Source of the DNA: Phaeodactylum tricornutum CCAP 1055/1
Lineage: Eukaryota > Bacillariophyta > Bacillariophyceae > Surirellales > Neidiaceae
Assembly: GCF_000150955.2 (NCBI RefSeq)
Contig: NC_011674.1
Span: 310,001 to 374,000 of the forward strand
Direction of reading: 5' to 3'
Length of the DNA stretch: 64,000 bases
Below, piece after piece: positions 29,201 to 64,000 of this stretch (positions within the stretch are counted from its first letter, which is position 1; every line of letters starts with the position of its first letter). Under the pieces are notes generated by a model. The model saw only the letters and a list, made by a program, of their open reading frames with translations, had not been told where the DNA came from and made no database searches. The translations under genes were made by a program, and so were the position numbers.

Positions 29201-29409
29201 TCGCCGTCCCCGGGCAGAGGATTGCAACCCAAACAGCGCCCGTTGAGCACCTTGCCGTGATCCGTAATGGGAATCATTTTGAAGAGCTTCTTCTGGAAAC
29301 ATTTTTGTCCGCAACGGACGCATTCTCCCTTTTTCCGCCGGAGTTCTTCCAGTTCCCGTTTGCTCATGACGGAACCAGTGGCGTTGAAGTCCGTGCCCAA
29401 CCGTTCCAT
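26242..29409 (-). CDS. Armadillo-repeat protein with N-terminal Cys4 module
   Basis: 1055 residues from the first ATG at 29409. Residues 16-62 form a small Cys module: RKKGEC30-x2-C33, then GRC59-x2-C62, with an IT and a VLNG between, as in the two other ARM proteins of this window. A 500-residue disordered region rich in Ser, Gly, Thr and His follows. The last ~430 residues are ARM repeats of about 42 residues (cores such as VQEYAMATIANLSV, LQEKALQALRNLSA, VQEMGCAVLCNLAT). ARM arrays are protein-interaction scaffolds; no enzyme domain is present. The role is unknown. The gene has no intron. Confidence 0.85.
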   Translation of the reverse strand: MERLGTDFNATGSVMSKRELEELRRKKGECVRCGQKCFQKKLFKMIPITDHGKVLNGRCLGCNPLPGDGDASGVLPAVSRPATMQDLQRFNRSQNNLVLPPNTANTATGSVAGGSVSGSANGGGSRSNSSRTFTPMTNTPTGSHNGNVGTGNSSTTPRRSAPRASSSRGLIRGQSERARASSGTAASITTATGRSMESLLQQQSEEVRLESSQLTPSSSHPDQDHIPEQCRQQLHYGSTASPSTGFLSQRRNGLQRGGSFARTGRGSPEVYGETLSMSRSCSTSPANTPTGSSPRYDMEHRQSSVRSGLSHISLDSALSGASAISSPHPHWQQIEESPVNRRNSVNTSIDGSISSSAHVRQSPHCSNSGVDTSVNGSGDLVHTGPTTHPYYEHDTFAVPSSRATDTSYESLPSHHISTASTDDVSGNDELHDAPSPVTEQRPDVDLPQQQPDTNLTAHPTAAELLDYYRRTFREASQRSLQHHGSNGTGSVAGGRMTSGSLSGSGGPETTGMPAGESDHLPSHGVLNRGGVVSFQHLQHQGNQAQGPQSLTGTVNSSSHHHRRGSSRPSSSRSLDSMSSFGEEVNASILNSNDAESAPSDTSFRESSAVSQDPGVARIQQAGVDFVEVLNTLRDLPDSLRTQTAGLHVLSELTLSEEDSETLLNIGVVQVILDAMRRYAHDTSQVELQTAACRAILNVTGTSEAQINFVQNQTVEHVSTLMQNLLENATVQEYAMATIANLSVLEANLPILIEEHSVTRIVEAMNKHSENRQVQIKGCSAITNMASHTTPLKKTIMDQGGGGAVVVSMVMHPGDVELQEKALQALRNLSANSDENKMELARIGGIESVIGAMQVHRDEAGIQKTGSWSLSNLAGFVDNKRIIGECGGVDVIVRAMWVHSDEVSVQEWCCRALFTLALEPQNRLVVLDVGGISAVVNAMQAHVDSSTVQEMGCAVLCNLATDQATKLRIVDEEALDAIVLAMVLFGDEIKVQQQGCQILSQLCVAENLKSLQASNAGELALAAAHKFPECDAPAQWLLNSLEEFAAAYIETTEAHH

Positions 29410-29852
29410 AGTAATGGATGTTTTTTTGACTGGCAATGGTGGCTCGCGAAAAGATTCAGAGAATGGCTGGGTGCCTTTTTTGGCAAGTCTCCCACACTAC
29501 ACACACTACGAGCGAGGGACTGATTGTGGTTTGCGGAGGAGGATGGCGTGATTCTTGACAAGTGTGTGGGTAGCTCAAAATTTCGTGTATTCCCGTCCGC
29601 AAAAGCGATCCCGGCGTCGGACTCGGTTCCTCTCACCAATCCAGCAGACTGAGCACGATAGGCCGCAACGCCAACCGTCCAGTGGCAGCGACGCAAGGTT
29701 ATTCGAGAAAAACAAAAGTGGAATCCCGTACGTGCGAAAAACGGCAGTGACCGGGAAAGATCGAACGTCCGGGGTCGCGCAACCCAGGACTAGCTTTGCG
29801 GGTCACCCACGTGCGCGTGGAACACCAAGGATCGCTCCCGCAGACTCTTACG

Positions 29853-41868: not shown

Positions 41869-42697
41869 CGTCGGTCAAGTCGGACTTCGCTTTGCCTAAT
41901 AATTGGTTGTCAGTGACACCAGCAGTAACGCGTCGAAAGACGGATTTAGCCTTGCTTTATCCCAGATGGTCGTGTTTTTTATCGCTATGTCTTTCGCAGC
42001 TCTCTTCGATGCGTTGCCCCATGATCAACGAAACCTAGGCTTGTCCTTCGCCGCTCTTGTTGTACCATGTGTCGCAAGAGACTTAGTATTCTATCTCTTT
42101 TGAGACTAGATAAACACGTGGTGATAGATTGCTGAAACGTATTGGAATGTCTCTTTCTCATTTGGGTTTTCTGGCTTGTTTTCGTACTGTCGGTTTTACG
42201 GTTGCCTCGTAAAGTTTGTATGACCGTTCATTCACGCTACTTCGTCCTGGAGGTGTTTCGTGCTAGGTTGTATAGTAGTCCTAGCAAATAGGTTGGTTGA
42301 TTAGCATTTCCTTGTGGATGGTCCTGCTACGTATAAGCGAGAGCAGGGGCATTTGAGATGGTTCACAGAAATAGACGGTCATTCCTCTTCCAATCATTCG
42401 AATGACCACGACATAGAAGACCTTCGTTGTCAAAAGCATAATTGGACACTTTGATCTAAAAAATCCATTTCCGAACTGATCTCTAAGTTTTACTATAAAC
42501 GAGCTATTTCCCTAAGTACGAGAGTCATCGGGAAAACGCCATAATGACCAAGACATCATAATGAATGAATCGGAATGACCGCGCTTATACTTTTTCAGAA
42601 TATCAGGTCGCTTACACTTAATTGTAAACAATTTACGTATCATCACACGGAAAAGGGAAAAGGGTTGGGCTGATATAAGTTTTGGTTCACTGTACGC
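41869..42697. other. Intergenic region, 829 bases
   Basis: AT-rich spacer between CWC22 and the second ARM gene. Open frames here are short and start without ATG; I found no RNA or repeat. Confidence 0.5.
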
Positions 42698-44851
42698 ATG
42701 CTTCATCTACAGTTAGCCAGGGCAAAATCAAGTGTATTTGTCACAGAAAAACACAATACAGACTGGAAAGGAGACAAAACATCATACCAGCAGGCGACGA
42801 TGGCTTCCGAAACTGAACGCCGAAGCTCTGATTTAGAAAGGGAAGGGCAAAAGATCGACGTTTCGATGCTATCGTACTCGGAGATGACTTTGGTCAGCTC
42901 CGGAGAAGTAATGACACGCGAGACCAAGGCTGCGATTCGCAAAAAGCTTGGGTATTGCACGGAATGTCCAGGGCGACCGGTACTTGTCTTCGACGTGAAG
43001 AGGTCAAAATTAAACCCCTTGTGGTTTTCAAAGAAGGTCAGGAGTATAGATGGGGAATGCAATGATGGGCATTGCCTGAAATGCCATCCTGATTTTGATC
43101 CAAAGAAACCCTCGGAACGAAGAGCCCTTCGGCGCTATTCGGAAAAGAGTTGCGGGACAAACTCAACTGTTTCCATGGGCTCGTCACGCTCGCTAAGGTC
43201 TCAAGAGAGTGATAGTAGTTCACCTAATACTCCTGTGAGAACCACTCCTCGGCCCAAGACCCGTGCTTTAGCCAGGTCTTTGTCAAATGAAACGGACCTT
43301 CAAGCCATCAAGCGAATGCCTCGGCTAGATAGTAAACGTATCATGGAGAACTCCGACTCCGCCAGTGATGAACGACATTATGATCAAAGAGCCAACCGAC
43401 AACATTCTGATGGGAGACCCATGCCTCGTCGCTCCAAGTCTGCTAATCTTTCTCCCGAAACCTCGCCCAACTCCGGTGACTCAGGCGAAGGTCAGAACAT
43501 GACTCTTCGAGGAAACAGCGAACACCTTCGCTCGTCCACGAGCCACCACGAAGGTCGAGTGACTGTTGAACTATCTCGCAAAGTCGTCGACACCCTTTAC
43601 AATGATGATATCAAAGAAGCCTCCGTTCATTCGTTTTCTACAGTTGAAAGATCGGAAAGCTCCCCACCGGCTAGTCCGTCGGATAACTGGAGTCCCACAC
43701 CTAGTCCGAGACCTCGCCGGAAAATTAAGCAACAAGATTTGCAGTCTTCTGCCGTTACCGAACTTCAGGGACTACTGGTTGATCTTGTCTCCAGCGGCAG
43801 CCATCATGTTCTGTCTGAAATTCTTTGTGATTCAATGAAGTCGAATTCTAACGACTTGGAGATTCAGCTGTTATGCCTTCGTACAATATCTTCAGCGTTC
43901 AAGCAGAGCAACGTTGGAATCTCCAAGCTTGTCTTGGCCCGTGCACATATAGAAATCATCAATGCGATGCAACACTTTCATTCATCGATGGAGATACAAC
44001 AGAGGGCATGTGCTGCAATCTGGGCATTATCGCGAGACAATAGCGCAAGGACAGCTTTGATACGTAAGGGTGTCTGCGACTTGATTCAAAGAGCAATGTC
44101 GAGGAACTTTGGTGATAATGTACTTGTAGAAAAGGCCTTAATGGCTCTCCGAGCACTCTCAATCGACGAAGAAGCACGCGACATTCTGCACCGCGTGAGC
44201 GTGGTGCACGACATTGTTCAGGTCATGGAGTGTCACTGTATGAACGCGGATATCCAAAGGGATGGATGTGCAGTCTTGTCCAACATGGCAGTCGAGTTTG
44301 AGAAGAAACAGGCCTCCGTTGTGTCGGTACACGTTCTGAGAGCGGTGGTTGCCGCTTTGAAGACGCACTTAAGTGATCCTGTTGTTGTCGAGAGTGCATG
44401 TTTCGCTCTTAACAACTTCTCGTACGAAGAAACAAATCTGAGGGCTCTTCGTCGTTTTACTGAGATATTCCCTCTTCTAGAACGGGCCCAGCAAATCAGC
44501 AAGGGTGACCATGCATTTGCTGTTGTCGAAAAGCTGCAAATTTCTCGCGCTGAAGATGAGTCCTTGGAGGAACAACTGCATGCGTACTTGCTGCATCTTA
44601 TTGAACAGAAAGCCGATGTACCGGAAGTTGTGGAAGAAGTTGTAGAATTCCTCCGTGCTAACGAATGGTCTCTGCGCATGATGGCAGAAACCCTCAGTGC
44701 GCTGCGTCTTCTCGCCACTAAGGCAACTTTCCACAAAGAAATTCTTCTTGACCAGTTATCAATACCTGATCTCGAAAGAATATTGAGAGTGTTTGAAGAC
44801 GATATTCGTATTCAAACAGAAGCACGCCGACTTATCGAATGCTTTAAGTAA
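42698..44851 (+). CDS. Armadillo-like protein with N-terminal Cys module (second member)
   Basis: 717 residues from the ATG at 42698, or 683 from the ATG at 42800. Numbered from the second ATG, C53-x2-C56 (RKKLGYCTECPG) and C92-x2-C95 (GHCLKCHPDF) form the Cys module, with the extra cysteine C87. A Ser/Arg/Pro-rich disordered region follows, then ARM-type helical repeats (LQLLCLRTISSAF-like, IQQRACAAIWALSR, VEKALMALRALS, IQRDGCAVLSNMA, VESACFALNNFS). It is a paralogue in layout of 26242-29409 and 50400-54269. No catalytic domain is seen. It may be a signalling or cytoskeletal adaptor; that is a guess from the fold. Confidence 0.85.
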   Translation: MLHLQLARAKSSVFVTEKHNTDWKGDKTSYQQATMASETERRSSDLEREGQKIDVSMLSYSEMTLVSSGEVMTRETKAAIRKKLGYCTECPGRPVLVFDVKRSKLNPLWFSKKVRSIDGECNDGHCLKCHPDFDPKKPSERRALRRYSEKSCGTNSTVSMGSSRSLRSQESDSSSPNTPVRTTPRPKTRALARSLSNETDLQAIKRMPRLDSKRIMENSDSASDERHYDQRANRQHSDGRPMPRRSKSANLSPETSPNSGDSGEGQNMTLRGNSEHLRSSTSHHEGRVTVELSRKVVDTLYNDDIKEASVHSFSTVERSESSPPASPSDNWSPTPSPRPRRKIKQQDLQSSAVTELQGLLVDLVSSGSHHVLSEILCDSMKSNSNDLEIQLLCLRTISSAFKQSNVGISKLVLARAHIEIINAMQHFHSSMEIQQRACAAIWALSRDNSARTALIRKGVCDLIQRAMSRNFGDNVLVEKALMALRALSIDEEARDILHRVSVVHDIVQVMECHCMNADIQRDGCAVLSNMAVEFEKKQASVVSVHVLRAVVAALKTHLSDPVVVESACFALNNFSYEETNLRALRRFTEIFPLLERAQQISKGDHAFAVVEKLQISRAEDESLEEQLHAYLLHLIEQKADVPEVVEEVVEFLRANEWSLRMMAETLSALRLLATKATFHKEILLDQLSIPDLERILRVFEDDIRIQTEARRLIECFK

Positions 44852-50399: not shown

Positions 50400-53300
50400 A
50401 TGGCGGCGCTATCACATTCCGTTTTGGTTGAAGGATCGATTCTCTCTGGTGATCAATTGCGGGATTACGCCTATTCGCACGGTGTTTGCCCTATTTGCGC
50501 CGCGCAAAAAACCCATCGTAAGGCCGGAAGTATTCTCAACAAGATTTGGGAACCGATTACAGATACGAAGAATGGAGAGTACGCCGTTTACAAGGGATAC
50601 TGCCTACAGCCTACCTGCTACACATTGGCGGAAGCCCAATCACAGTTGGGTGAACGAACCTCGCCGAAGAAGAAAAAGAAACGCAGAAGTCGAAAGTCGC
50701 TCGGCAGTGTTTCAACAAGCATTCACACAACAAAGCCGATTTCGAAAGGAATTGTCGTCTCCAAGTCTAATCTATCGGCTGTTACCAGGTCTACACACAA
50801 TTCTTCTAAAAGCACTCTGCCGAGAAGCCAGTTGATTCTACAACCTTCACCAACGCTCACAACACCAAAGTCGACCACTAGCCTGAATATAGTTACAAGG
50901 TCAAGCTTCGCTCGACTCAACGTGCTTCTGCCGAGTGCACCGGGCAAGGAAATGAATCAAAAGACTATATCAAAAACTCAGTGGGACCAGCATTTGTACC
51001 GACCGATTCTTGCAACATCAAAAGCCCAAAAGACCAACTCAATAGAAAGTCAAACTTCCCCGTCCCCAGCCACACTTCAACTTCATCCTTTAGAAGACCC
51101 CCATACGCTTTATGACCCCTCGATAATTCTTCAGGTTCTGGAGCAACACGCAGGTGACCCGCAAGTCGCTGCGTGCTCGCTCCAATCTTTGCGCAAAACG
51201 CTTGTTGCGCTTCAATACACAGATTTCTACAGCCAAAACGACTCTTGGATCAACATATTGTGCGCCAAAATAAAATATCACAGTCATGATGTCAATGTCG
51301 CCTCTCAAGGTGTCCTCTCTCTTCTGACCGTCGCGGCTGTTTCGTCGAAATACGCTCAGAGTATAATTTCGAATAAAGGAATTGGGCTCATTTTGGCCAT
51401 TGATAGATCCCATGAAGGGTGTACCCACGGTTGTATTGGAATGTCTGATCGGTGTTGCGCGGCGCTGGAGGTATTGCTTGGGGCGTGTAAGCGTGTGTCG
51501 CAAGGAGACCTCAAATGTCTGGTGGAGCGGCTCGTCTTTCATGCGTTGGGAAGGGACATAGCTTGCTCTGACTATGCTCTTCGAGCCTTATTTCATGTGG
51601 CTCAAAAGACAGTGCGTGGGAGAAATGAACTTGATTGTACGATCTATCAACTCGTCCATTCCGTGGATGTCGTAAATCTACTGTGGGCAAAGCTGGACGG
51701 AGATTTGGTGAGTGCTCTGATCGCAGAGTCGGCACTCTATTTATTGTGGAAGCTGTCGGTAAACAAAAACTCGGAGGGAGCCCAGCCTCTGCGAGTGACC
51801 AGAGAAAGTGCAGGATCGCTATTGAGACTTGTTGTGAAATATGACGATGTATTTCTCCACGACGCGGCGCTTTGCCTCGTGTCCTGCATAACGTTGACTG
51901 CAGAAACCGCACATCGTCCTGAGTTTGTGGAAACCGTTGTTTCCGCAGTGTGTCATGTTCTCCGGAGACATCCTAACCAGGAAATAATCCAAGTCAAGGG
52001 TCTTTATGTTCTGACTAAGACTTTCGGGGGGAGGGCGTTTTCAGCTGCAATCCAAGAGGACATTGAAATATCTGCTATAGAGGCAGCAAGGCAATTTCCG
52101 ACCAGTGCTGCGCTATATGCTGTGGCCTGTCGTATCATTAGAGAAAATTTTGAACGGGGCAACGGAAAAGAAAATGGGATATCCAACAGCGTTGCACCCG
52201 CATTCCTTGCCGGAGCATTTCAAAAATGCGTTTTCGACTTTCCGCATGACGAAGTTGACTCGATTGCTGCCAAGGACGCGTTGATCTCCGCACTCATCAA
52301 GGTATCGGGAAATGTCACTGCATGTAGGGAGCTTGCAAGATCTGATTTGCTCTGTAACGTAGACCGCGCAATGAACAAAGAAAGCGACGCTCTCTACCTT
52401 GCTTCATTCCATCGTATCGGGATCAACATACTAACGCTTCTAATCAAAGATGTACAACATGTTCAGGATTCCAGCGACACGAAGGAGGGAGTCTCTTTTT
52501 CGCGGCATTCATGCCGATTGCTGGAAATGGTCGAGATAAGCACGATTGTTGCACCGGAATGCTGTATCCTACTTGCCGGAATCTATTCCGCAGTCCCTTT
52601 CCGAGGTAGCTTTGGTCAACATTCAAAATTATACACTTCCCTCGGTTCACTGACGATCGTTTCTCATACCCAAGATGAGTACAACGCTATCCTCCTTTCC
52701 ATGAGAGCATATAAAGAAAATACAGAGGTGCAAAAGGTATGTTGCCTGGCCCTATCAAACTTCATTGCCCCCATTTGCCATTTGAAACGAGCGCCTGAAT
52801 CGTGTGACACGATCGGACATATGACATCTGGGACGCTTGCAATGCTGGCCGATTCTGTCAGTTTTCACAAAGACAATGCTGACGTCTTGTGCAGCTGCTA
52901 CTCGCTATTCTGGACGCTCATATTCGTCAGTAGTCACGCCGACCTTCAGCGATGGACACCGAAACTACTTGCGTCCGTCTTCGAGGCATCGAAGCGCCAC
53001 AAAGACTCCATTGAGATCAAAACAGTTATGGTTTCTGTCTTTCGAGCTCTTCTGGCCAATGACGCAGGATTTTCTTCTCTTTCTTCACAACAAGGCGTCT
53101 CTGCACTTTTTGACAGCCTCACGAACGCTGACGACTCCATTGTCATTCAGGCAGCACAAACGCTCGCGTGCGTTGTCGGCCACGATTATGAAACTGGCTC
53201 TCTCCTCAACACAATAAAAGGGGTGGTTTCGAGCATCTTGACTTGCATGACGATGCACGCATGGTCAGTAGAGGTGCAACTTTCTCTTTCTTCGGTATTG

Positions 53301-54269
53301 GAGGCCCTCGTAGCTCGCCAAGAAAGCAATATTTGTCGAGAAGTAGTTCATTGTGGAGGGTTAGAGGCCATCTCTACGATTCTTCGGGCTCACGCATCTG
53401 AACACTCCGTGATTCAGTACGCTTGCCAAGTACTCGTCGGCGTTCTCTCAGAGGTAGACGATAATATCCTTTGGTCTCACCGATTGTCTCTCAGCCAGGC
53501 CATTGTAATCGCTTTTGAAGCAGGGTCCGAATCTCCAACAGCTATTTGCCTTCTCGAGGCAATTCTGTGCCTCTGTGATACTGCTGACTATTTCAGAGAG
53601 CTTGTTGCCGTATGCTTCCCGTTTGTCTTGCGTTGTATGGCCTCAAACCTAAGGAATGTGACCTTATTAAAGAACGGATACCGAGCAATTCGTGTGCTTA
53701 CTCCCCATGTTGCTAGAAGGGTGTCGCTGATAGATAGAGCGGGGCTGAATGTGGTTGTCAATGGACTCCTTGTCCATCCCGAGTCAAAGGAGCTTCTCTT
53801 GGAAGGTTTGGAAGCCATCAAAATTCTTGCTCTCGATTCGGGCACGAGAGAAGGTTTGGACAGAGCACAAGTCCAAGAAACCATTGTTTGCTTGATGGAG
53901 ATCAATGCCCAAAAGCCGGACATTCTAGCGCAAGCCTTTGCCGCTCTCAACAATGTTGTCATCATAGACGCAGCAAAGAGTCAAGTATCTCCACTCAGAG
54001 AAGGCGTCATTGATATGATCATCTTGGCCATGTTTCGGTACCCTCTTGATGCTAAGACTCAGGAAAATTCTTGCATGTTGCTGAAAAGTTATACGTACAG
54101 CCCCAACCTTTTCGACCTCGTTAGTGACAAAAAGGATGTGCTCATCCCTATCCTTGTTAGCGCCGCCGAAAACTTTCCCGAAGTATGTGGAAAGCGTGCC
54201 TGCTCGATCCTAAAAAGGTCTAGAGGCTGCAATGTTCCACAAAAAGAATTTACGAACAGTAAGATGTAG
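50400..54269 (+). CDS. Armadillo-repeat protein with N-terminal Cys4 module (third member)
   Basis: 1289 residues from the first in-frame ATG. The N-terminal module has G28-x-C30-x2-C33 and KGYC68-x4-C73 with EPIT between, the same plan and the same first Cys positions as the protein at 26242-29409. A Ser/Lys/Thr-rich linker (about 80-220) follows. The remaining ~1050 residues are helical HEAT/ARM-like repeats (VNVASQGVLSLLTVAA, VQKVCCLALSNF, IVIQAAQTLACVV, SVIQYACQVLVGVL, ILAQAFAALNNV). No enzyme domain or membrane segment is seen. The function is unknown; a scaffold role is likely. The gene has no intron. Confidence 0.84.
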   Translation: MAALSHSVLVEGSILSGDQLRDYAYSHGVCPICAAQKTHRKAGSILNKIWEPITDTKNGEYAVYKGYCLQPTCYTLAEAQSQLGERTSPKKKKKRRSRKSLGSVSTSIHTTKPISKGIVVSKSNLSAVTRSTHNSSKSTLPRSQLILQPSPTLTTPKSTTSLNIVTRSSFARLNVLLPSAPGKEMNQKTISKTQWDQHLYRPILATSKAQKTNSIESQTSPSPATLQLHPLEDPHTLYDPSIILQVLEQHAGDPQVAACSLQSLRKTLVALQYTDFYSQNDSWINILCAKIKYHSHDVNVASQGVLSLLTVAAVSSKYAQSIISNKGIGLILAIDRSHEGCTHGCIGMSDRCCAALEVLLGACKRVSQGDLKCLVERLVFHALGRDIACSDYALRALFHVAQKTVRGRNELDCTIYQLVHSVDVVNLLWAKLDGDLVSALIAESALYLLWKLSVNKNSEGAQPLRVTRESAGSLLRLVVKYDDVFLHDAALCLVSCITLTAETAHRPEFVETVVSAVCHVLRRHPNQEIIQVKGLYVLTKTFGGRAFSAAIQEDIEISAIEAARQFPTSAALYAVACRIIRENFERGNGKENGISNSVAPAFLAGAFQKCVFDFPHDEVDSIAAKDALISALIKVSGNVTACRELARSDLLCNVDRAMNKESDALYLASFHRIGINILTLLIKDVQHVQDSSDTKEGVSFSRHSCRLLEMVEISTIVAPECCILLAGIYSAVPFRGSFGQHSKLYTSLGSLTIVSHTQDEYNAILLSMRAYKENTEVQKVCCLALSNFIAPICHLKRAPESCDTIGHMTSGTLAMLADSVSFHKDNADVLCSCYSLFWTLIFVSSHADLQRWTPKLLASVFEASKRHKDSIEIKTVMVSVFRALLANDAGFSSLSSQQGVSALFDSLTNADDSIVIQAAQTLACVVGHDYETGSLLNTIKGVVSSILTCMTMHAWSVEVQLSLSSVLEALVARQESNICREVVHCGGLEAISTILRAHASEHSVIQYACQVLVGVLSEVDDNILWSHRLSLSQAIVIAFEAGSESPTAICLLEAILCLCDTADYFRELVAVCFPFVLRCMASNLRNVTLLKNGYRAIRVLTPHVARRVSLIDRAGLNVVVNGLLVHPESKELLLEGLEAIKILALDSGTREGLDRAQVQETIVCLMEINAQKPDILAQAFAALNNVVIIDAAKSQVSPLREGVIDMIILAMFRYPLDAKTQENSCMLLKSYTYSPNLFDLVSDKKDVLIPILVSAAENFPEVCGKRACSILKRSRGCNVPQKEFTNSKM

Positions 54270-54312
54270 CGCAAAAAACACTTGTGTTACCAGACTTCGA
54301 GTTTAAGTCTCC

Positions 54313-56368
54313 TCAACATCGTCGTAGAATGAGCAGTACTGGGGAAGTGCCGTGTAGCTCTGGTTTCGACGGTAATCCGAAAAATTCCTCGGGCGATATC
54401 AACAACCTCACTTCATATGTGTGAAATTTAACAAGTGATTCGTGCAGTCTCGCCCCTCCTTGTTTAACGAGGTATTCTGCCTGTTTACGGTCTTCCCGAT
54501 TCAACTTGCGCATTTCGCTCTACATTGTTTTGAAAGAAAGCAGTGTTTGAGAGGCCGCATTTGCAAGCGTAAAGTTTCGACAAGTATATGTTGCAATTGC
54601 ACTGACCGGTGGCTTCCCGAAGTATGGTTCCAATATACTACTAGAGATTTTGCACGATAACAGACTGGCGTCGTGCTCGTTGGGACCTCCAAACCGCGCC
54701 GCCATATCGTACTCGTACTTCTCTCCTTGGCCTTTGACGTATTGTTGGCGTTTGGAAATATTGAAGGACAATTTAAGTCCTACTTGTCTTATAGAGGACG
54801 TCAAGAGAATTTTGCCATAGTACTTTTGGTACAAGGCTGGATTGGTGCGCACTCGCCGAAGTAGTTCCATAAGTTCGGCAAACTCCATGGCTGAACCTGT
54901 AGTATTACCAGGGACAGGAGCAACGGTGGTTCGAGCGAAAGCGTTGGGCGTCAAGGTCGACTGTGACGAAACTCCCGCTGAAGGCAAGGGATTAGACTCA
55001 GGTCCCGATACCGCATCCATCCGCTCTGTCGTGTTGGACTGCACCAATGATGCCGAGCCTTGAACCGACGAAAGTGTTCCTGCCGTAAAAGTCGGGGTCA
55101 CGTACGGATTGGCTCCCCGCGCGGCTGGTACGGGAGAGATGACGGTCAAAGATCCTGGGCTGCTGCTGGAGGCGCTTTTTGCGGTGTACGGATTTCTATT
55201 CCGGGGAACTGCGTCCAGTCCGGAAGGCGCTGGACGATACCGAGGAACGGCAGCAACAGCAGAGCGAGCCAGCGGTGGTCGAGTGGCGGGTGTGGGTACT
55301 GTGGCAACCGCCGGACGCGGTGCCATGGGTACTGTGGCAGTAGACGGAGGAAGTTGCGTTGCTCGAGGTGCTGCCACCACGTCTTCACTTTCGTGTTCGC
55401 CTTCGTCTGTTGCGAAAACAAGCGAGCAGAACAAGGGATTGAGCCCGTTGAGATGGCGCGCGCGTACTCGCTTCCTTGCGGTGCCATAGATGGCATCGAT
55501 TGTACGTACCTTCGTCATCGCCACCCAGGCCGACCTGGGCTTCGGGATTCCATACCAATGCTCGGATGGTGGGATCTACACCGACTCCAGCCATGCGCTT
55601 GGCCTGTTGCAACGCGGAGATTTGAATTTCTACCAATTCTGGTACGTTGCCACCCAAAACTATCGTGTTCCCCACGTGCAGGAGCATTACACCGTGACGA
55701 ATGGTGATGGGTCCTTGCAACACAAGCTTGGTGCCCGCCAGGGTATTGACCGAAAGTGACGGAATGGGAGAAATTTCCATGCCGATGATACTCAGAATAC
55801 TAGAGGGTCCCGGGCGGCTACTGCTTACGAGACTGTTTTCCGGACTGTTCGTCTCGAACACTCGGCCGTCCCCGTAGCAACCATCCGACAGGCACATTTT
55901 CAAAAGACGCTTCCTTTGATTGCCAATGGGTGTCGGGGCGTTGGGACTAGCGGGACCCACTTGCAGTCGGGCTTCGGCATTGTGCGAGATATCCAAGAGT
56001 TCCTCCACCTGTACCATCCATCGGAAACTGGCCGACAAGGTTGCCTTGTGGCTGCTGTTACTACTTCTCTGGTCCGATTCCGCGTGGCTTGGCTGCGATA
56101 CCTGGATCGCCTTGCGCAACTGCACCGCGCAGGAAGTCGTACCGTTCGGAGGCCCAGGAGACTGTGGTGACGGCTCGACGAACTCCCGTACCACATCCCG
56201 CAAATCGTGGTGCAAGATCTGTTCCAACACGGCATCGGCCGATACGGATCCACCGGAATAACGCAATTCACGTTGACAATCTTCCAACCAGTGCGAGGAC
56301 GGGCGCACTCCCGCTTGCCGTTCCAGCTGGGATCGCACATCCGCGACACCACCGTTGTCGAACGCCAT
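54313..56368 (-). CDS. RMI1: RecQ-mediated genome instability protein 1 (RMI1)
   Basis: Exons 56368-55510, 55406-54607 and 54519-54313, with introns of 103 and 87 bases, give 621 residues; the frame is open up to 56461, so a longer start is possible. The N-terminal part has the RMI1 helical region (SSHWLEDCQREL) and OB1 (TLAGTKLVLQGPITIRHGVMLLHVGNTIVLGG). A long Pro/Thr/Ser linker leads to OB2 (YDMAARFGGPNEHDASLLSC, SSSILEPYFGKPP). The third exon supplies SEMRKLNREDRK and the final helix, matching the PEMKQL region of human RMI1. RMI1 stabilises the BLM/Sgs1-Top3 complex that dissolves double Holliday junctions in the nucleus. The second intron could be missed by gene callers. Confidence 0.86.
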
Positions 56369-56732
56369 GCAATTAGGATTAGACGAGAATGGTGACGGGG
56401 CGAGTTTAAGCGACTCCGCCAGTGCGAAAATGTTTCGGATACAATGCGTGAGCGTTAGCATGTGACCATGGTCGACCTAAAGAAGCGAATGTACCGGCCT
56501 CGAACACGGCGACTGCCGACTCGTACTTTTTAAAATTTGGAATATTGAACTGAAAGATATTTGAAATGGTTGCGAACACGCATCCGCCGCACGGTCAGAC
56601 GAAGCATCCGTGATCGTACAGTTTTTCCTCTCACCGTCCACGCGGACAGTGAAACCTTAACGTGACGTTCCTTTCTTGGCCCACTTGTGTGTTCTGCATA
56701 ACTGCAAGTACGAACCGGAGAGGGTCGTTACC
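56369..56732. other. Divergent intergenic region, 364 bases
   Basis: This lies between RMI1 and the MiaB-like gene. Parts may be 5' UTR of either; nothing else is seen. Confidence 0.4.
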
Positions 56733-58838
56733 ATGGTAATATCCGCACCGATGGCAACACGGCGAACATTACTTACCACCGCCAGGATGCAGAGGCAGAG
56801 CGGTATGCTTCGGTGGTCCCCGGCAGCGTTCGGGGAACGATACAGGCAATCGCACGGAATGTGGCACACGGGCGTCGACCGACAGTGCCGCGCACAGTCG
56901 GTTGACGTTACTGTTCAGCACACCAGCAAGAAACCGTCCACGCGACTTCCTTCCGATGGACTCGGATTATCGGACTTTGTCGGCGGATCCCGCATGCTGA
57001 CGAAACACTCCAACCTGGAATCGTCTTCGGCTTCATACTCCTCGGTCATGTCCAACGAAACGTCCGAGAACTATGATAATCGGATATCTTCCACCGACAT
57101 CTCGTCGTCCTCGATGCACCCATTCAAATTTCACCTTCGTACTTTCGGATGTCAAATGAACGTCAACGACTCCGACATTGTCCGCGCGCTTCTACTGGAA
57201 CGAGGCTTTACGGAAACCTTGGACGAAACCGACGCGGACGTCTTGTTGACCAACACGTGCGCCATACGGGAAGGTGCCGAGCAAAAAGTGTGGCACCGCC
57301 TGCGGGAACTCCGCGGCAAGTTCAAATCCCGCAAAGTTGTGGGCGTCCTGGGCTGTATGGCGGAACGGCTGCAAACCGACTTGTTCCGGGACGGATTGGC
57401 CGATTTGGTCGTTGGTCCGGACGCCTACCGGGATTTGCCGCGGCTCATGCGAGACTTGCTGCGCGAGCCGGACGACGACGACGCGGAATTGGGACGGGTC
57501 AATCAAGCCTTTAATGTACAGTTGAGCTTGGACGAAACGTACGCGGATGTCACCCCGGTGCGGCGACACGGCAATAGCGTCTCGGCATTCGTCTCGATAC
57601 AACGAGGATGCGCGAACCGCTGTAGTTTCTGTATCGTCCCGTTCACGCGGGGGCAAGAACGCTCCCGCCCCTTTGCGAGTGTCGTCGGGGAGATACAACA
57701 ACTCTACGAACAAGGCGTCAAGGAAGTCACGTTGCTCGGTCAGAACGTAAATTCCTACCATGATACCAGTGAAACCGCACTGTCCGTTCGTCCTGATTCG
57801 GGCTACCGAATGTCCAACGACGGGTTTAGGAGTCGAATTCGTCGACACGACGGTGGGTACTATTTTGCCGACTTGGTGGCCGCCGTGAGTGATATTTCGT
57901 CCGAGCTCCGCGTACGTTTTACCTCCCCACACCCGAAAGACTACCCCCCGCCACTACTCACGCTCATGGCCGAACGACCCAACGTCTGCAACCACCTGCA
58001 CATGCCGGCTCAGTCCGGTTCAACCTCCATGTTGCAACGCATGAAACGTGGATACTCTCGAGAAGCATACCTGGAACTAATGGATACCGTGCACGAAATC
58101 ATTCCCGACGTTGCCATTTCGTCCGATTTTATCGCCGGATTTTGCGACGAATCGGAAGAGGAGCACCTCGATACCCTTTCGCTGATGGAACGCGTGCGAT
58201 ACGATCAAGCCTTTATGTTTGCCTATAGCATGCGCGGGAAAACTCACGCCCACCGCACGATGCAAGATAATGTCCCGGAAGACGTCAAGAAACGGCGACT
58301 AATTGAAATTATCGACACGTTTCAGCGACACGTACAGGAAAAGAACGAGAGCCTCGAAGTCGGGCGGTTACGCCTCGTCCTGGTCGAAGGGGAATCTAAA
58401 CGCTCCCATCCTGGTGCCCGAGCTTGGCAAGGTCGCACGGATCAGAACAAACGCATCATCTTCCCCGTGGACGAGACTGTGACGGTACACGACCACGCTG
58501 CGCTTGCACCGGTATGGACAACGCTACTACGGCCACACGCAAAAAGCGAGCGAGGCTTTGATCCGAAAGTCCAACTCGCTGAACTACCACGAGTTTCTTT
58601 ATCGGTCGGCGACTATGTAGTTGTGCAGGTGACCGAGGCCAAGGGTCACACGCTGCGGGGGAAGGCACTGTGGCGATCGGGTGTCACCGCTTTCGACCAA
58701 ATAGGCTTGTCAGGCATGGACGAAGCCAGCTTGGGACGTGCGCAAGGCTTGCAACATTGGTGGAGCGGGCAATGCCAATCCAAGCAGGAACAACGGACTG
58801 GCGTTCGAAATTTGGAGGTTCGAATGGCAGTGCAGTAA
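56733..58838 (+). CDS. tRNA methylthiotransferase, MiaB/CDK5RAP1 type
   Basis: 701 residues from the first in-frame ATG (56733). The N-terminus is Arg-rich, without acidic residues (ATRRTLLTTARMQRQSGMLR), as in mitochondrial presequences. The UPF0004 domain has cluster cysteines C140, C176 and C208; the radical-SAM motif is C293-x3-C297-x2-C300 (RGCANRCSFC); a TRAM domain closes the protein. These enzymes add a methylthio group to i6A37 of tRNAs with two Fe-S clusters. An insert follows QNVNSYHDTS, and a longer linker lies inside TRAM. About 1 kb from near 58010 onward, including this gene's 3' end, has a decayed direct copy at 62495-63448. Confidence 0.92.
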   Translation: MVISAPMATRRTLLTTARMQRQSGMLRWSPAAFGERYRQSHGMWHTGVDRQCRAQSVDVTVQHTSKKPSTRLPSDGLGLSDFVGGSRMLTKHSNLESSSASYSSVMSNETSENYDNRISSTDISSSSMHPFKFHLRTFGCQMNVNDSDIVRALLLERGFTETLDETDADVLLTNTCAIREGAEQKVWHRLRELRGKFKSRKVVGVLGCMAERLQTDLFRDGLADLVVGPDAYRDLPRLMRDLLREPDDDDAELGRVNQAFNVQLSLDETYADVTPVRRHGNSVSAFVSIQRGCANRCSFCIVPFTRGQERSRPFASVVGEIQQLYEQGVKEVTLLGQNVNSYHDTSETALSVRPDSGYRMSNDGFRSRIRRHDGGYYFADLVAAVSDISSELRVRFTSPHPKDYPPPLLTLMAERPNVCNHLHMPAQSGSTSMLQRMKRGYSREAYLELMDTVHEIIPDVAISSDFIAGFCDESEEEHLDTLSLMERVRYDQAFMFAYSMRGKTHAHRTMQDNVPEDVKKRRLIEIIDTFQRHVQEKNESLEVGRLRLVLVEGESKRSHPGARAWQGRTDQNKRIIFPVDETVTVHDHAALAPVWTTLLRPHAKSERGFDPKVQLAELPRVSLSVGDYVVVQVTEAKGHTLRGKALWRSGVTAFDQIGLSGMDEASLGRAQGLQHWWSGQCQSKQEQRTGVRNLEVRMAVQ

Positions 58839-59057
58839 GCAATTATATACAGTGTAGACAAAAGTTGGACTTCGAGTGTGGGTTCCTGTGGTTTTTGTGT
58901 GTGTGAGTCTAATAAACAACATGGTCTCGTCTTTCCCCTTCCGCGAGCGGAATTTCTTAAATTTCGATCTGGGCATTCAAACGGGTCGCGGCGCCTCGTC
59001 CACATCCCGCACTTTTTCGGGGTCAACACATTGACCTCCTCGACCCGGTCCTTGCAA
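58010..59057 (+). repeat. Direct duplication, copy A (partner 62495-63448)
   Basis: It includes the MiaB-like 3' end, its ~85-base spacer and the last ~45 codons of a YgfZ-like gene. Copy B has the same order and orientation. Identity is patchy with small indels but obvious by eye (for example GATGCAAGATAATGTC... in A against CTATGCAAGATAATGTC... in B). Outside these limits the flanks differ. Confidence 0.85.
58921..59057 (-). pseudogene. 3' fragment of the YgfZ/COG0354-like gene
   Basis: On the minus strand this matches the last ~45 codons of the intact gene at 63309-64000 (its VDPDEVRDED-SPRPVRMPKIEIEEIPL part), but frame changes give NVLTPKKCGMWTRRRDPFEC and the terminal stop is lost. It lies just past the MiaB-like stop, in the same tail-to-tail place as the intact gene has to its own MiaB relic. 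It is a non-functional remnant of the duplicated block. Confidence 0.8.
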
Positions 59058-59409
59058 GGTAGAGCGAAAGATAAGACCATCTTGAGAGTCAGAACGAGGC
59101 ACACGCTAGCCACCGGGAAACAAGTACTTCCGCCTCCCACGAAAATATCCGAAAGTTTCGCCGTATTTCCAACGGCCACTGACCTAAAGAAGGATCAGCA
59201 GCTACCTGTATTTTCTTGGACTTTGTCTCTTCGCCTGTGATTCACTGCAAGGCGGCGGTAGCTGATGCAAATGGCCTTCGTCTCGGACTTTCCCGCCACA
59301 TCGTGGCGACGGTTGCCGAAATGCGGCTTTGCAACCGGATAGAGTCAAAAGCGAACACCTCGGGGGTCGGCGAGGTCAATCAAACAAGCGATTCCCTCGA
59401 GACCCACCG

Positions 59410-62030
59410 CTACTCCGCAAACCCTCGCCGGTGACAGTGTCCTTTCTCCTTGACTTCTATCATGGTACTTGAAATACATTCGTATTGAAGCAGCTTCCTA
59501 AGGAGGCTATTTGTGCCCATTGCTGTTGGGTTGGTGAAGGCGTGTGCAGGGTATTCCGTTGGATACCAAAGAGTAAAGCCGGTGCAATTGGCCAGATGCT
59601 TAAGAAGGCCATAAACCTTATGACTGCTTGCACGAATATCCTTTATTTGTTCGGGGCTTGTGAGTAGACAGGGATCAGGGCCAACACTATTTTCAAAGCT
59701 CTTGAGAATAGTGGCAGGGTCAATGGGACCGGACGGAATGTATCCGTGTCCCCGACATGCCTTTTCATTGTTTCGGACCTCATGTTCAAGGCAACGGGAA
59801 TGAACATGGATAATGGTCAGAGGCACTATATTTGTGGGCTTTTTGTCGTGAGGAGGTAAGATTACACCATTGTGACCACCTAAGTCGACAACTTGCACTG
59901 TCCTAGCATCAAGCACTACTTTCTTCAACTGATACGGGATTTGATGAAATTGGCCAAGATCCGTGCCTCTCCCAGCTTCACAAATTTTGCGATCCTGGAT
60001 AGTGCCTACTGAAGTCTCAATCTGCATTCTGCCTCCATCGGCTTTTATAGGAAGCAGAGAATAGGCTCTCAAGAGTTCAATTACACCATACGGAGAAGTC
60101 GAGCAGTTACCGGACTCGCCATTTCTGCAAGTTGCATTCTGGCTGTTGACTGCCAAAAACTCATCTGTGTCAACTTTCATGAGAAAATCGGCAGCCCCAG
60201 CCAGGGAAAGGGCCATCGCACTGAGTTCCCTTCCCAGTTCATTCAAATTTGCTGGAGTGAATATCACATTGACTCCGAGATGGTCCCTAGCATACTTCAA
60301 GAAAGATATATTGTCCAGACTGGTACTCCCATCCAGAATGTACAGGTGCTTGTACCCAATGAGTTCGCCATGGTAAAAGACCCAACGCTGCAAAAGATCA
60401 CCCTCGTCCTTTGTCATCATGATTAATTTGATGACAGCCTCTAGCGGTCGCAGGGAATGGTTCACGCCATTAACCCACTCCTGCCACATATCACCATGAC
60501 TTTTCTCCTTCTCATGCGGTGTGTCTAGGTATGCTTTATACGTGACATTGCCTCCTGGTCCACCAAGATTGTACCGAGGGCTGGCCAACATGGGTTACAT
60601 CTACAAGGCCAACGTAGCCGTGTTCATAGAGAGCAACGTAGAGTGCTTCAAGCTTGCCTGGGAGGCTAGTCGAGTCTGACTCCCAGCCGTCCAACAGCCC
60701 CAGCAAGGGATTTGTCTTCATGTATAGATCCTGCTCCGCTTGAAAGTCTGCAAGATAGTTATGTGCAGTTCGAGTGTGGGTGACCAAGGGCCCCGCATAC
60801 ACGAGGCTCAAATTAATGTCACGGAATAGTCTCTGGGCAACGTATGCACGCCAGATATCTGTGACACGACCCGGGACAGAAAATGGAAGAAACATTGCCC
60901 AGAAAGAGTTTTGGAGATGAACAGTAGCTTGAGCGTTGTACGACGCAAACGTTTTCGATGCGACCAATAACTTCTGAGAATCTTCTTCAAAGCCAAAGGG
61001 TAAGTCCCTGGTCATTCTCCATATAGCGTCAACATCGGGATCGCCTACAAAATTTAAAGCATGAGAAGTGTGAGATTGAAAAACTGTAGTGACTGTGAGA
61101 CCCTGACAGCGTACCATCGCAAACAGATTGGATCACTCCAATTCGGGAGACCGGTATACTTCCAAACACCAGACTCGGGTCAGACTGCATCCCAGCGTTA
61201 GAAGTGGTTAAATCCTGCAGCGGAAAGCCGCGCGGCCACGGGTTTGTCACATTTGGTCCCATGTACGGCAATGGATTGAAAGGAAGAGGAAGATTTGGTC
61301 TTGGGTCAAAACGCACAAGGATTGAATCGCTCTTCATCCCTTGTCGGTATGTAAACGGTTCTTTGGATTCCCCGTTTTCAGTCTTCTGCAGCACATTGTC
61401 GTCGTCGAAGTCGTAAATGACCTGTGCTCCATGGCGAATCGCAAACAAATAGCCGAGGTTTTTGCGGGCAAAGCTTTGAAAAGGCAGGATCTGACCAAAG
61501 GGAGATTTACCCAAGAAAAGCATTTGGTCACGGGCAGAAAGATAAATAACATTGTCTAGACTGTTGAGATCGGCGTAGGCTGCATCGGGAGTTTTCGTAT
61601 CGCCAATGATAACCAAGCACCAGTTCCGAAGCTTCGAAACACCATAAATAGATTCTCCCGGCTCAAAGATGGTAGTGACGACAGCCCATTGCAAGCAATC
61701 TTTAAAGTTCTTAGAGAACGAGCTGCCTAGGGTTGACTTGTTCTTTTCGTTGTCATCCTTTTGATCATTGTAGTCCCTTAGTCTCCAGGAGCCCTGGAAG
61801 TATCTAGTCTTTTCTCCCTCGAAAACTGTTCCGGTGGCACCCGAAGCTTTTTCCTCGAGCCCACTGAGAGGACCCCCCGGATACCGAAGGAAGATTTCAC
61901 GGTCCTTGCTCGACTTGGATTCTGAAAGCGACGGGACGATCCAAACGTTCAGCGTGATCGTCGCGATTGAAATAAAGGAACAACACATAGTCACAAGCAG
62001 AAGGGATCGTAACCAATTATTTAAAACCAT
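59410..62030 (-). CDS. STELLO-like (DUF288) plus GT92-like glycosyltransferase
   Basis: Exons 62030-61115, 61044-60681 and 60580-59410 (introns of 70 and 100 bases) give 816 residues. The frame is open to 62096, which would add 22. Residues 7-30 are a signal anchor, so a type II Golgi protein is expected. Residues 110-400 are DUF288/STELLO: WAVVTTIFEP, WCLVIIGDTKTP, SFARKNLGYLFAIRHGAQVI and the acidic YDFDDDN. Intron 1 splits DGDPDVDAIWRMTR, a conserved DUF288 string. Exon 3 adds a second glycosyltransferase-like domain (about 480-780) with KLIMMTKDEGDLLQRWVFYH and D564-x-D566. The second splice site, which makes WDPRYNLGG, is less certain than the first; two adjacent genes are the alternative. 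The donor sugar is unknown. Confidence 0.8.
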
Positions 62031-62494
62031 GTTTTTGTTTCTGACCAGGCCGCAAAGAAGATGTGAAGACAGTTTGTGTTGCCAAAAAGAGGGCAAAGAT
62101 CTGTTGTATCTGCGTTTATTTTGCCGTTTTCGTCATTTTTCCGGTCCGTGAAGACAACACTAATGGTAAGGTAAAGCCCGAGGAACGGCTATTTTAAAGT
62201 TCAGAGGAAACGCATTGCAATAAAAAAACCGTTACATTCCCTTTTGTAAATAACCTAAATAACCAATAAATCCATTCACTTAAGTATTTTCTTTCTTTCT
62301 CGGGCGTTCTAGGTAACGGTAGCGGACAAAGTCTCGTGGAAAATAAGTTTCAAAATGGCAGTACCTCAACAAGGTCTCCAGGGATGTGCCTAATCAACAG
62401 TAAAAGAAAGATGTCATACGTTATAAGTGTAAAACGAACAGTACTGGAATTTTTTAGGTGTTTTGACTGTGAAGCACACCCCAGCTATGTATCG
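62031..62494. other. Intergenic region, 464 bases
   Basis: AT-rich upstream region of the STELLO-like gene, reaching to the start of duplication copy B. No gene or repeat was identified. Confidence 0.45.
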
Positions 62495-63245
62495 CGAGCC
62501 AATCCGGTTCAGCTTCAACGTTGCAACGAATCAAACACGGCTAGCTAGACTCGAGAAGCATACATAGAGCTATTGGAAATCGTACACAATTTCACTTTCT
62601 ATGTTGACATTTCATCTAATTTCATCTCATCTCATCGCCAGGTGTTGCGACGAAACGCAGGAGGAGTACTTTATGTCTGCCTACTATGTACGCGGGAAGA
62701 CCCACGCCACCGCACTATGCAAGATAATGTCTCCGAAGCCGTCAACACACGGCGACTAATCGAAATTATCGATACCTTTCACCGACATGTATAGGAAAAG
62801 AGCAAGAGAATCGAAGTCGGCCGATTGCGCCTCGTCCTGGCTGAAGGGAAAATTCAACGCTCCCAGCTCGTTGCCTGGATTTGGCAAGGCCGTGGGGACC
62901 AGAACAAACGCATCGTCTTTCCCGTAGGCGGGACCAAGAGGGTCTCGACAACGCCTCGCTTTTTCACGTCTGGACAAAGATGCTAAGGCCATATGCTTGA
63001 GCGAACGAGGCTTCGCTCCAATAGTACGACTCGCTAATTTCACATGGATTTCATTGGTAGTGGTCGGTGACTAGTTGACCGAGGTCGCTCTCTGAGGGGC
63101 AAGGCATTGTGGCAGTCGGGCGTGATGAATCCAGCTTGGAACGAGCGTAGCGCTTGCAACGGTGGTGGAATGGGCAATCCCAGTCTTAACGGGAAAAACA
63201 AGTTGGCGTTCGTAGTAAAGATGTTCAATTGGCAGTACAAATGCA
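62495..63245 (+). pseudogene. Decayed 3' half of the MiaB-like gene
   Basis: Collinear with 58010-58840: REAYLE (here REAYIE), the GKTHAHRTMQDNV region (GKTHATALCKIMS with a frame change), RRLIEIIDTFHRHV and the TRAM-linked RLRLVL stretch are still readable. A CAG-to-TAG change at 62792-62794, several frame changes and a deletion of some tens of bases near 62620 make it non-coding. No promoter or 5' half is present. It is a host-gene relic left by the duplication, not a processed copy, since spacer and neighbour were copied too. Confidence 0.88.
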
Positions 63246-63448
63246 AAACTTAACAGTTTAGGCAAGCGTTGTACTTTTGAGTGTTGGGTACCCGGGTTGC
63301 GTATACGTCTACTTCAGCTCTCGTCTTTCCCCTTCTGTCAGCGGAATTTCTTCAATTTCGATCTTGGGCATTCGAACGGGTCGCGGCGAGTGGTCCTCAT
63401 CCCGCACTTCATCGGGGTCAACACCATCTACGTCCTCGGCCCGCGCCT
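62495..63448 (+). repeat. Direct duplication, copy B (partner 58010-59057)
   Basis: The block repeats the MiaB-like 3' end in decayed form, then the shared spacer and the first ~140 bases (C-terminal codons) of the intact YgfZ-like gene. It ends inside that gene, at the point where copy A also diverges. Confidence 0.85.
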
Positions 63449-64000
63449 TGCCTGTTTTCGGATCCAAATCGGGCCACCAAAGGGGCAAATACGGCAAATA
63501 ACGTAACTCTTGGCCATTGCCGATGCGTACCTTGTTCGTTTTGGACCATACCCCGCCCTGCAGCAGCCCGACACTCTCCAGTCTCATAATAGCCAACACC
63601 ACGTTGGTCCCTTTAACGGGAGGTGCCACGATCTGTCCAATCGTCTTCCCGTCCTTGGTATCGACAATCTTCGCCCCGGGAGTGCAATCCGTTTCCAACC
63701 GCGCCAGTAAGGCTTCGGCACGGGATTTAATTTGAGCCAGTTCGTCCCGAGCAGCGTTGTCAACAGCCTTTCCGGGAGGCTCGATGGATCCGGTAGTAAT
63801 GGCAACCAAATTCCCCGCCGTGAGAACCGAAAGGCGAGGCAGTCTCGTCGGCAAGGACCGGAGCTCTTCGGCGGAAAATTTTTTCCCCGCACGGCCTTGC
63901 TGCAAGCTACTGGCCAAACCCCAGGCCTGTGGTACTTCCGTGTAGGGGTCCAGAAGCAACAGGGGGAGGATACGTTTGCGGACGGCTCCCGTATGGTGGA
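63309..64000 (-). CDS. YgfZ/COG0354 (GcvT-fold) protein, C-terminal part
   Basis: The frame is open to the window edge, so the 5' part lies beyond 64000. The visible 230 residues begin HHTGAVRKRILPLLL, a string typical of the folate-binding YgfZ/IBA57 group just after its KGCYxGQE region. DTKDGKTIGQIVAP and VVLAIMRLESVG follow, the GcvT C-terminal barrel, then YLPYLPLWWPDLD and an acidic tail. Plant plastid COG0354 proteins have a similar end. The family supports assembly or repair of Fe-S enzymes. Its last ~45 codons belong to the direct duplication shared with 58921-59057. Confidence 0.8.
   Translation of the reverse strand, partial: HHTGAVRKRILPLLLLDPYTEVPQAWGLASSLQQGRAGKKFSAEELRSLPTRLPRLSVLTAGNLVAITTGSIEPPGKAVDNAARDELAQIKSRAEALLARLETDCTPGAKIVDTKDGKTIGQIVAPPVKGTNVVLAIMRLESVGLLQGGVWSKTNKVRIGNGQELRYLPYLPLWWPDLDPKTGKARAEDVDGVDPDEVRDEDHSPRPVRMPKIEIEEIPLTEGERRELK

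Follow-up and report, generated by a model that had tools for sequence, protein, structure and literature searches.

How does a gene come to lie between two convergent neighbours and leave neither of them broken? This question is raised by a locus close to the end of the window, i.e., the whole stretch of 64,000 nucleotides of DNA analysed here, in which a glycosyltransferase gene lies between a MiaB-type tRNA methylthiotransferase gene and a YgfZ/IBA57/CAF17-like gene. The evidence supports the view that these convergent neighbours are now parted by a segment with a ~1-kb direct duplication of its target on either side. The locus is thus a clear single-locus case of a gene placed between convergent neighbours, neither of which is broken, since the 3' ends that they share were duplicated in the same event. 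No long-standing question is opened by this case alone; its paired relics provide two internal clocks for one event.

The duplication consists of copy A (58010..59055, + strand, 1046 bp), which contains the intact 3' part of MiaB, a spacer and a relic of the YgfZ-like 3' end, and copy B (62497..63451, + strand, 955 bp), which contains a decayed MiaB 3' part, the spacer and an open YgfZ-like 3' end in the same orientation and layout. In the local alignment of positions 57998-59055 with 62474-63451, 737 of the 935 ungapped columns are identical (78.8%, a figure that leaves out the 166 gap columns that the alignment contains), and the alignment score is 841.4 versus 32.4-47.5 for 20 single-base shuffles. 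The pair is also recovered by a repeat search of positions 52000-64000 and by blastn across the window with the low-complexity filter on (E 1.2e-113 and 1.1e-12; next pair 2e-9), in agreement with the proposal of the sequence-only reading that a ~1-kb direct duplication flanks the STELLO-like segment. Because a 13-bp gap separates the leading aligned stretch (57998-58010 / 62474-62486), which may be due to chance, from the remainder, the firm start of the alignment was put at ~58010 / ~62497; the ends proposed in that reading, 58010-59057 and 62495-63448, proved correct to within a few bases. Similarity ends sharply at both segment borders. Just outside the copy ends ungapped identity is 13/40 and 11/40, so that the sequences look unrelated, and the alignment scores of the ~400-bp flanks are matched by 130/200 and 60/200 shuffles. 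The proposed check of whether the alignment ends lie at the segment borders is nearly circular, since these ends define the segment; what it shows is their sharpness. On inspection for microhomology, both junctions are too diverged to be placed to the exact base.

The genes that contribute to the duplicated block differ in how firmly they can be named. MiaB is whole (56661..58838, + strand, a stop-to-stop open reading frame with its first in-frame ATG at 56733). Its product matches NCBIfam TIGR01574 with 364 bits, above the cut-off of 355.3, as well as TIGR00089, contains the Pfam domains UPF0004, Radical_SAM and TRAM, and matches the PDB entries 7mjz (1.7e-107) and 7mjv (2e-107). A contig search with MiaB, in collections that are viral or prokaryotic and so say little on eukaryotes, gave 18 pattern stretches, 0 of them confirmed. 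Of the YgfZ-like gene the window holds the C-terminal 229 codons (63309..63998, - strand), the remainder lying past the window end. Its match to PF25455, the CAF17 C-terminal barrel, stays below the cut-off (E 0.0021, 18.2 bits versus 25.7), NCBIfam gives no match, and the best PDB matches are WRAP-T entries (E 2.5e-4), with CAF17 entries at E 0.6 and 0.68; the signature region of the YgfZ/IBA57 family presumably lies past the window end, and the predicted structure of the available part is of too low a quality to be relied on (mean pLDDT 38.4). A YgfZ/IBA57-like identity is therefore a tentative, weakly supported assignment. The geometry of the two copies is reciprocal, with the upstream copy stopping inside the YgfZ-like gene and the downstream copy beginning inside MiaB, so that on each side one of the genes is open and the other reduced to a relic. 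In copy B the MiaB relic contains gaps and, in the frame tried, five stops, and the YgfZ-like relic in copy A (58925..59055, - strand) is interrupted by stops and, by reading of three frames, by an apparent frame change. Alignment and stops thus place the copy ends inside the two genes as originally described; of the accompanying claim of one complete gene and one relic per side, the whole MiaB gene and both relics stand, while the YgfZ-like gene is open in its 3' part and then runs off the window. Because both copies hold the same tail-to-tail MiaB-spacer-YgfZ junction, the MiaB and YgfZ-like genes must, judging from the DNA, have adjoined each other before the event, and the former neighbourhood posited in the sequence-only reading is upheld.

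The relics also bear on how the copies have diverged, in figures that are relative and uncalibrated in time. For the MiaB part, counted over the 721 columns at A positions 58010-58838 in which neither copy has a gap, 49/242, 40/241 and 73/238 sites differ at codon positions 1, 2 and 3, corresponding to Jukes-Cantor divergences of 0.236, 0.188 and 0.394. Position 3 thus exceeds positions 1 and 2 pooled (Fisher p 3e-4) and has about twice the divergence of position 2, a pattern as expected if one copy kept coding and the other, of equal age, drifted freely. For the YgfZ part, counted over 141 columns from B position 63309 upward, the excess at position 3 is not significant (10/48 versus 11/93, p 0.21), and at positions 1 and 2 this part has diverged less than the MiaB part, again not significantly (11/93 versus 89/483, p 0.14). 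A tally of the YgfZ region at A positions from 58920 up gives 18/133 differing sites.

The segment between the copies (59056..62496) measures 3441 bp, has a GC content of 47.2% and contains the glycosyltransferase gene (59410..62030, - strand), which lies on the same strand as the YgfZ-like gene. This gene combines a STELLO-like stretch (PF03385, E 5.3e-09, 35.8 bits, cut-off 27.8) with a GT2-like C-terminal domain (PF13704, E 4.5e-07, 30.7 bits, cut-off 27.5). The PF03385 match spans only profile positions 1-70 (1-69 in a second scan) of 387. A match over the full length of PF03385, as expected of STELLO, is thus lacking, and the GT2-like domain comes after the matched stretch. A 70-nt GT-AG intron is predicted at 61114-61045, and the frame changes near 60594-60536, which could reflect a second intron or a frameshift. 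The predicted structure of the GT2-like part is too poor to use (mean pLDDT 33.3). In contig collections none of the pattern stretches was confirmed for the N-terminal open reading frame (25 in genome_contigs), the STELLO-like middle one (5 in viral_contigs) or the GT2-like one (2); being viral or prokaryotic, these contigs have little bearing on eukaryotes. Our literature search found no paper pairing STELLO with a diatom.

What kind of event could have produced this arrangement? In our opinion it was probably a single repair or replication event, resembling a cycle of templated insertion, in which ~1 kb of host DNA was copied anew and the segment was taken up. Where MiaB and the YgfZ-like gene share their 3' region, a break or a stalled fork would have been repaired via copying, the new strand would have acquired the glycosyltransferase segment from another place, and its rejoining of the host ~1 kb upstream of the exit point would have led to the host block being copied a second time. 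An equivalent route would start with two nicks ~1 kb apart that produce a staggered break; after fill-in its ends would be joined with a captured fragment between them. In either case the superfluous 3' ends of MiaB and the YgfZ-like gene would have decayed afterwards. Tolerance of the event would be explained by the extent of the duplicated block, which included both 3' ends and so left each gene with its tail. A single event is favoured by the reality of the repeat, its sharp ends, the reciprocal layout of genes and relics, the codon-position divergence of the MiaB part, and the lack of terminal repeats beyond chance and of a mobile-element family in the five open reading frames of at least 120 amino acids inside the segment. 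To within the error of the alignment, both ends of the insert also coincide with the duplication junction, a finding that is partly circular because the ends define the segment. Less favourable are the divergence counts of the YgfZ part given above and the rarity of kilobase patch-repair duplications in rice. No donor, empty site or relative was found in the window and the viral and prokaryote collections, and the segment is only presumed to come from elsewhere. The predicted intron and the lack of a long T-run speak for movement as DNA, with the point against a single event that the intron could be a later gain. A retrocopy was considered and set aside on these two grounds: the predicted 70-nt intron, with the same reservation, and the lack of a poly-A tract past the 3' end of the gene, where no T-run at 59056-59410 exceeds 4 bases, although an old tract could have decayed.

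Tandem duplication had been presented in the sequence-only reading as a separate route that needs extra deletions. This holds only if both genes were duplicated whole, since a partial tandem duplication with breakpoints inside both genes leaves the same reciprocal relics without extra deletions, and a tandem duplication with an insert at its junction is the same product as an insertion with kilobase flanking duplication. Two forms of tandem duplication compete with the single event. The first, which we consider unlikely, is a larger duplication of the MiaB end, the whole YgfZ-like gene and a glycosyltransferase gene downstream of it, after which the greater part of the first YgfZ copy was deleted. 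It accounts for the arrival of the gene with its predicted intron and flanks, and the region downstream of the YgfZ-like gene, which may hold a second glycosyltransferase copy, falls past the window; it requires, however, the additional deletion and a matching or lost glycosyltransferase copy downstream of YgfZ, and the location of the gene on the YgfZ strand permits this course of events without demanding it. Somewhat less credible still are two steps, in which a partial tandem duplication of the ~1-kb block was followed by an independent insertion of the segment at the junction. The partial duplication alone accounts for the relics, and kilobase tandem duplications are on record in rice (PMC7971508), but the insertion must then strike a site a few tens of bases wide, and selection for unbroken genes narrows the free sites without favouring the exact junction.

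That a mobile element with long target-site duplications brought the gene is very improbable, even though an insert between direct repeats of target DNA has the form of a target-site duplication. The terminal 200 bp of the segment show no repeats beyond chance (the inverted score was reached by 38/200 shuffles, the direct one by 153/200), and only short repeats occur inside it. Pfam assigned no mobile-element family to any of the five open reading frames of at least 120 amino acids inside the segment and no family at all to the two crossing its left border, and thus no transposase, integrase or reverse transcriptase was found among them. A second copy of the segment was not detected in the window. 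Transposition is not known to produce target duplications of kilobase size. Among the matches listed, one title names long target-site duplications, for HERV-K (PMC5488345). An assembly artefact, for which repeats at segment borders would be classic misjoin sites, can practically be dismissed because a divergence of 21%, together with stops and numerous gaps, is far more than allelic copies or assembly duplicates would show.

The locus has the look of a decayed scar, left by an ordinary accident of DNA repair, and not of a new type of element. It is highly doubtful that in this lineage repair with re-copying of ~1 kb recurrently relocates whole genes between convergent neighbours, surviving chiefly where the block spans both shared 3' ends. 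A comparison of 491 six-frame stretches of at least 60 amino acids with each other as protein revealed no second event of such form in the window.

Comparable products are known from other systems. Cycles of templated insertions put a copied segment into one locus and replicate part of the host chromosome again (PMC7025897), which would leave a direct duplication on both sides of the insert, as at this locus. Those cycles are described in human cancers with 2-7 templates, whereas the present case is inherited, old and involves a single segment. Tandem duplications via patch repair of nearby nicks (Vaughn and Bennetzen, 2014; Schiml et al., 2016; as cited in PMC7407515 and PMC7971508) share with it the direct duplication from a staggered break, and duplications of DNA from other sites are within the reported spectrum. 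Typical patch-repair events are far shorter. In rice, where most insertions are ascribed to patch repair, perfect tandem duplications of more than 1 kb occur, up to 4.9 kb, but above 200 bp tandem duplications make up 5% of the events, down from 70% (PMC7971508), which makes 1 kb a rare size for such a duplication; the present 3.4-kb segment with its gene, set at a 1-kb duplication, also exceeds the 10-1000 bp range of rice insertions (PMC7407515). Many tandem gene duplicates are reported from one diatom genome (PMC7335047), which is background and not evidence for this locus. Repair-mediated duplications of vertebrates likewise result from germline repair that copies chromosomal DNA into a break; there the insert duplicates closely linked DNA and measures up to 619 bp (PMC2671141), whereas here the host block is doubled around other DNA.

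A direct duplication of about 1 kb flanks the 3441-bp segment 59056..62496, which bears a STELLO-like/GT2-like glycosyltransferase gene, its left copy (copy A) lying at 58010..59055 (+) and its right copy (copy B) at 62497..63451 (+). Alignment of 57500-59410 with 62132-64000 gives a single strong local match (A 57998-59055 against B 62474-63451), in which the copies are identical at 737 of 935 ungapped columns and which scores 841.4, whereas none of 20 single-base shuffles scores above 47.5; a repeat finder and blastn give results that agree with it. The firm left end is set at ~58010/~62497 (A/B) because a 13-bp gap separates the first dozen aligned bases from the rest. Past both ends the similarity is gone: identities drop to 13/40 and 11/40, as between apparently unrelated sequences, and the ~400-bp flanks score like shuffles, 130 of 200 and 60 of 200 of which reach the flank score. 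The duplication noticed in the sequence-only reading is therefore real, and had been well placed.

The whole MiaB gene (56661-58838, +) scores 364 bits against TIGR01574 (cut-off 355.3) and contains UPF0004, radical SAM and TRAM domains. The gene entering the window from the right end (-) is tentatively assigned as YgfZ/IBA57-like, judging from a sub-threshold match to PF25455 (E 0.0021) and from the His-His-Thr-Gly stretch that opens its visible part, a stretch known from this family. This visible part has no match in NCBIfam, and in a PDB search its best matches are WRAP-T entries (E 2.5e-4), CAF17 appearing only at E 0.6 and 0.68. MiaB and the YgfZ/IBA57-like gene were once convergent neighbours (56661-63998); in E. 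coli, MiaB activity depends on YgfZ (PMC10002905, PMC3223725), and the pairing here may be functional or due to chance. Left of MiaB, an RMI1-like ORF (55385-56476, -; PF08585, E 2.5e-15) and an overlapping ORF without Pfam match (54520-55575, -) are perhaps one gene with an intron (54520-56476). Elsewhere, ORFs 26245-29496 and 42674-44848, encoded on opposite strands, are weakly similar as proteins (25.7% identity across 230 residues; E 9e-10), and blastn finds a short direct repeat (12970-13037/13228-13295; 79% over 68 bases), visible at the protein level too.

Copy A continues from the intact MiaB gene and ends within the YgfZ-like 3' end, while copy B begins within the MiaB 3' half and continues into the open YgfZ-like gene. 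Because both copies keep the order MiaB end, spacer, YgfZ end, the adjacency before the event, as earlier proposed, follows without other species. The earlier interpretation is only partly correct, however: its proposal that a tandem duplication would need extra deletions is not supported, since a partial tandem duplication whose two ends fall in the two different genes yields precisely this geometry without any deletion, and only the 3.44-kb segment at the junction has to be added. A larger duplication followed by deletion is possible, the stretch past the YgfZ-like gene lying beyond the window.

Across the MiaB part, 49/242, 40/241 and 73/238 sites differ between the copies at codon positions 1, 2 and 3 (Jukes-Cantor divergence 0.236, 0.188 and 0.394; position 3 vs 1+2, p 3e-4). 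If copy B drifted everywhere and copy A only at silent sites, position 2 would record the changes of roughly one lineage and position 3 those of roughly two; the observed ratio comes to about 2.1. The YgfZ part (8/47, 3/46 and 10/48 sites) has a position-3 excess in the same direction, not significant (p 0.21); its divergence at positions 1+2 falls somewhat short of that in MiaB (p 0.14). Both relics are compatible with a single old event.

The inserted gene (about 62030 to 59410, -) comprises an N-terminal part without Pfam match, a stretch covering only positions 1-70 of the 387 in the STELLO profile, and after it a GT2-like domain (PF13704); the joining of the latter two (59410-62030) may represent a fusion. 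A predicted 70-nt GT-AG intron (61114-61045, -) links the first two parts. Between the second and third the frame shifts near 60594-60536, which may reflect a second intron or a frameshift, indistinguishable because many GT..AG pairs (50 candidates of about 31-180 nt, at least 30 of them beginning GTA or GTG) would restore it. No relatives were found among viral or prokaryote contigs, collections poorly suited to a eukaryote; the sequence-only reading took the host to be a diatom.

The best-fitting mechanism is copying repair with capture. Neither transposition nor retrocopying fits well, because the segment has no terminal repeats beyond chance, its five ORFs of 120 aa or more match no mobile-element family, no poly-T run over 4 bases lies 3' of the inserted gene and an intron is predicted. 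The event may have survived because the duplicated block, which contains the 3' ends of both genes, spans them. The sequence fits either of two routes. Template switching would re-enter the host upstream of the exit point, a process described as cycles of templated insertions, in which a host segment is re-replicated (PMC7025897). Alternatively, a staggered break would be filled in and its ends would be joined with a fragment between them, which is the patch-repair route to which insertions in rice have been attributed (PMC7407515, PMC7971508); the latter paper gives rice tandem duplications up to 4.9 kb, although they make up only 5% of the events longer than 200 bp. The locus is a tidy case of an already known kind of rearrangement.
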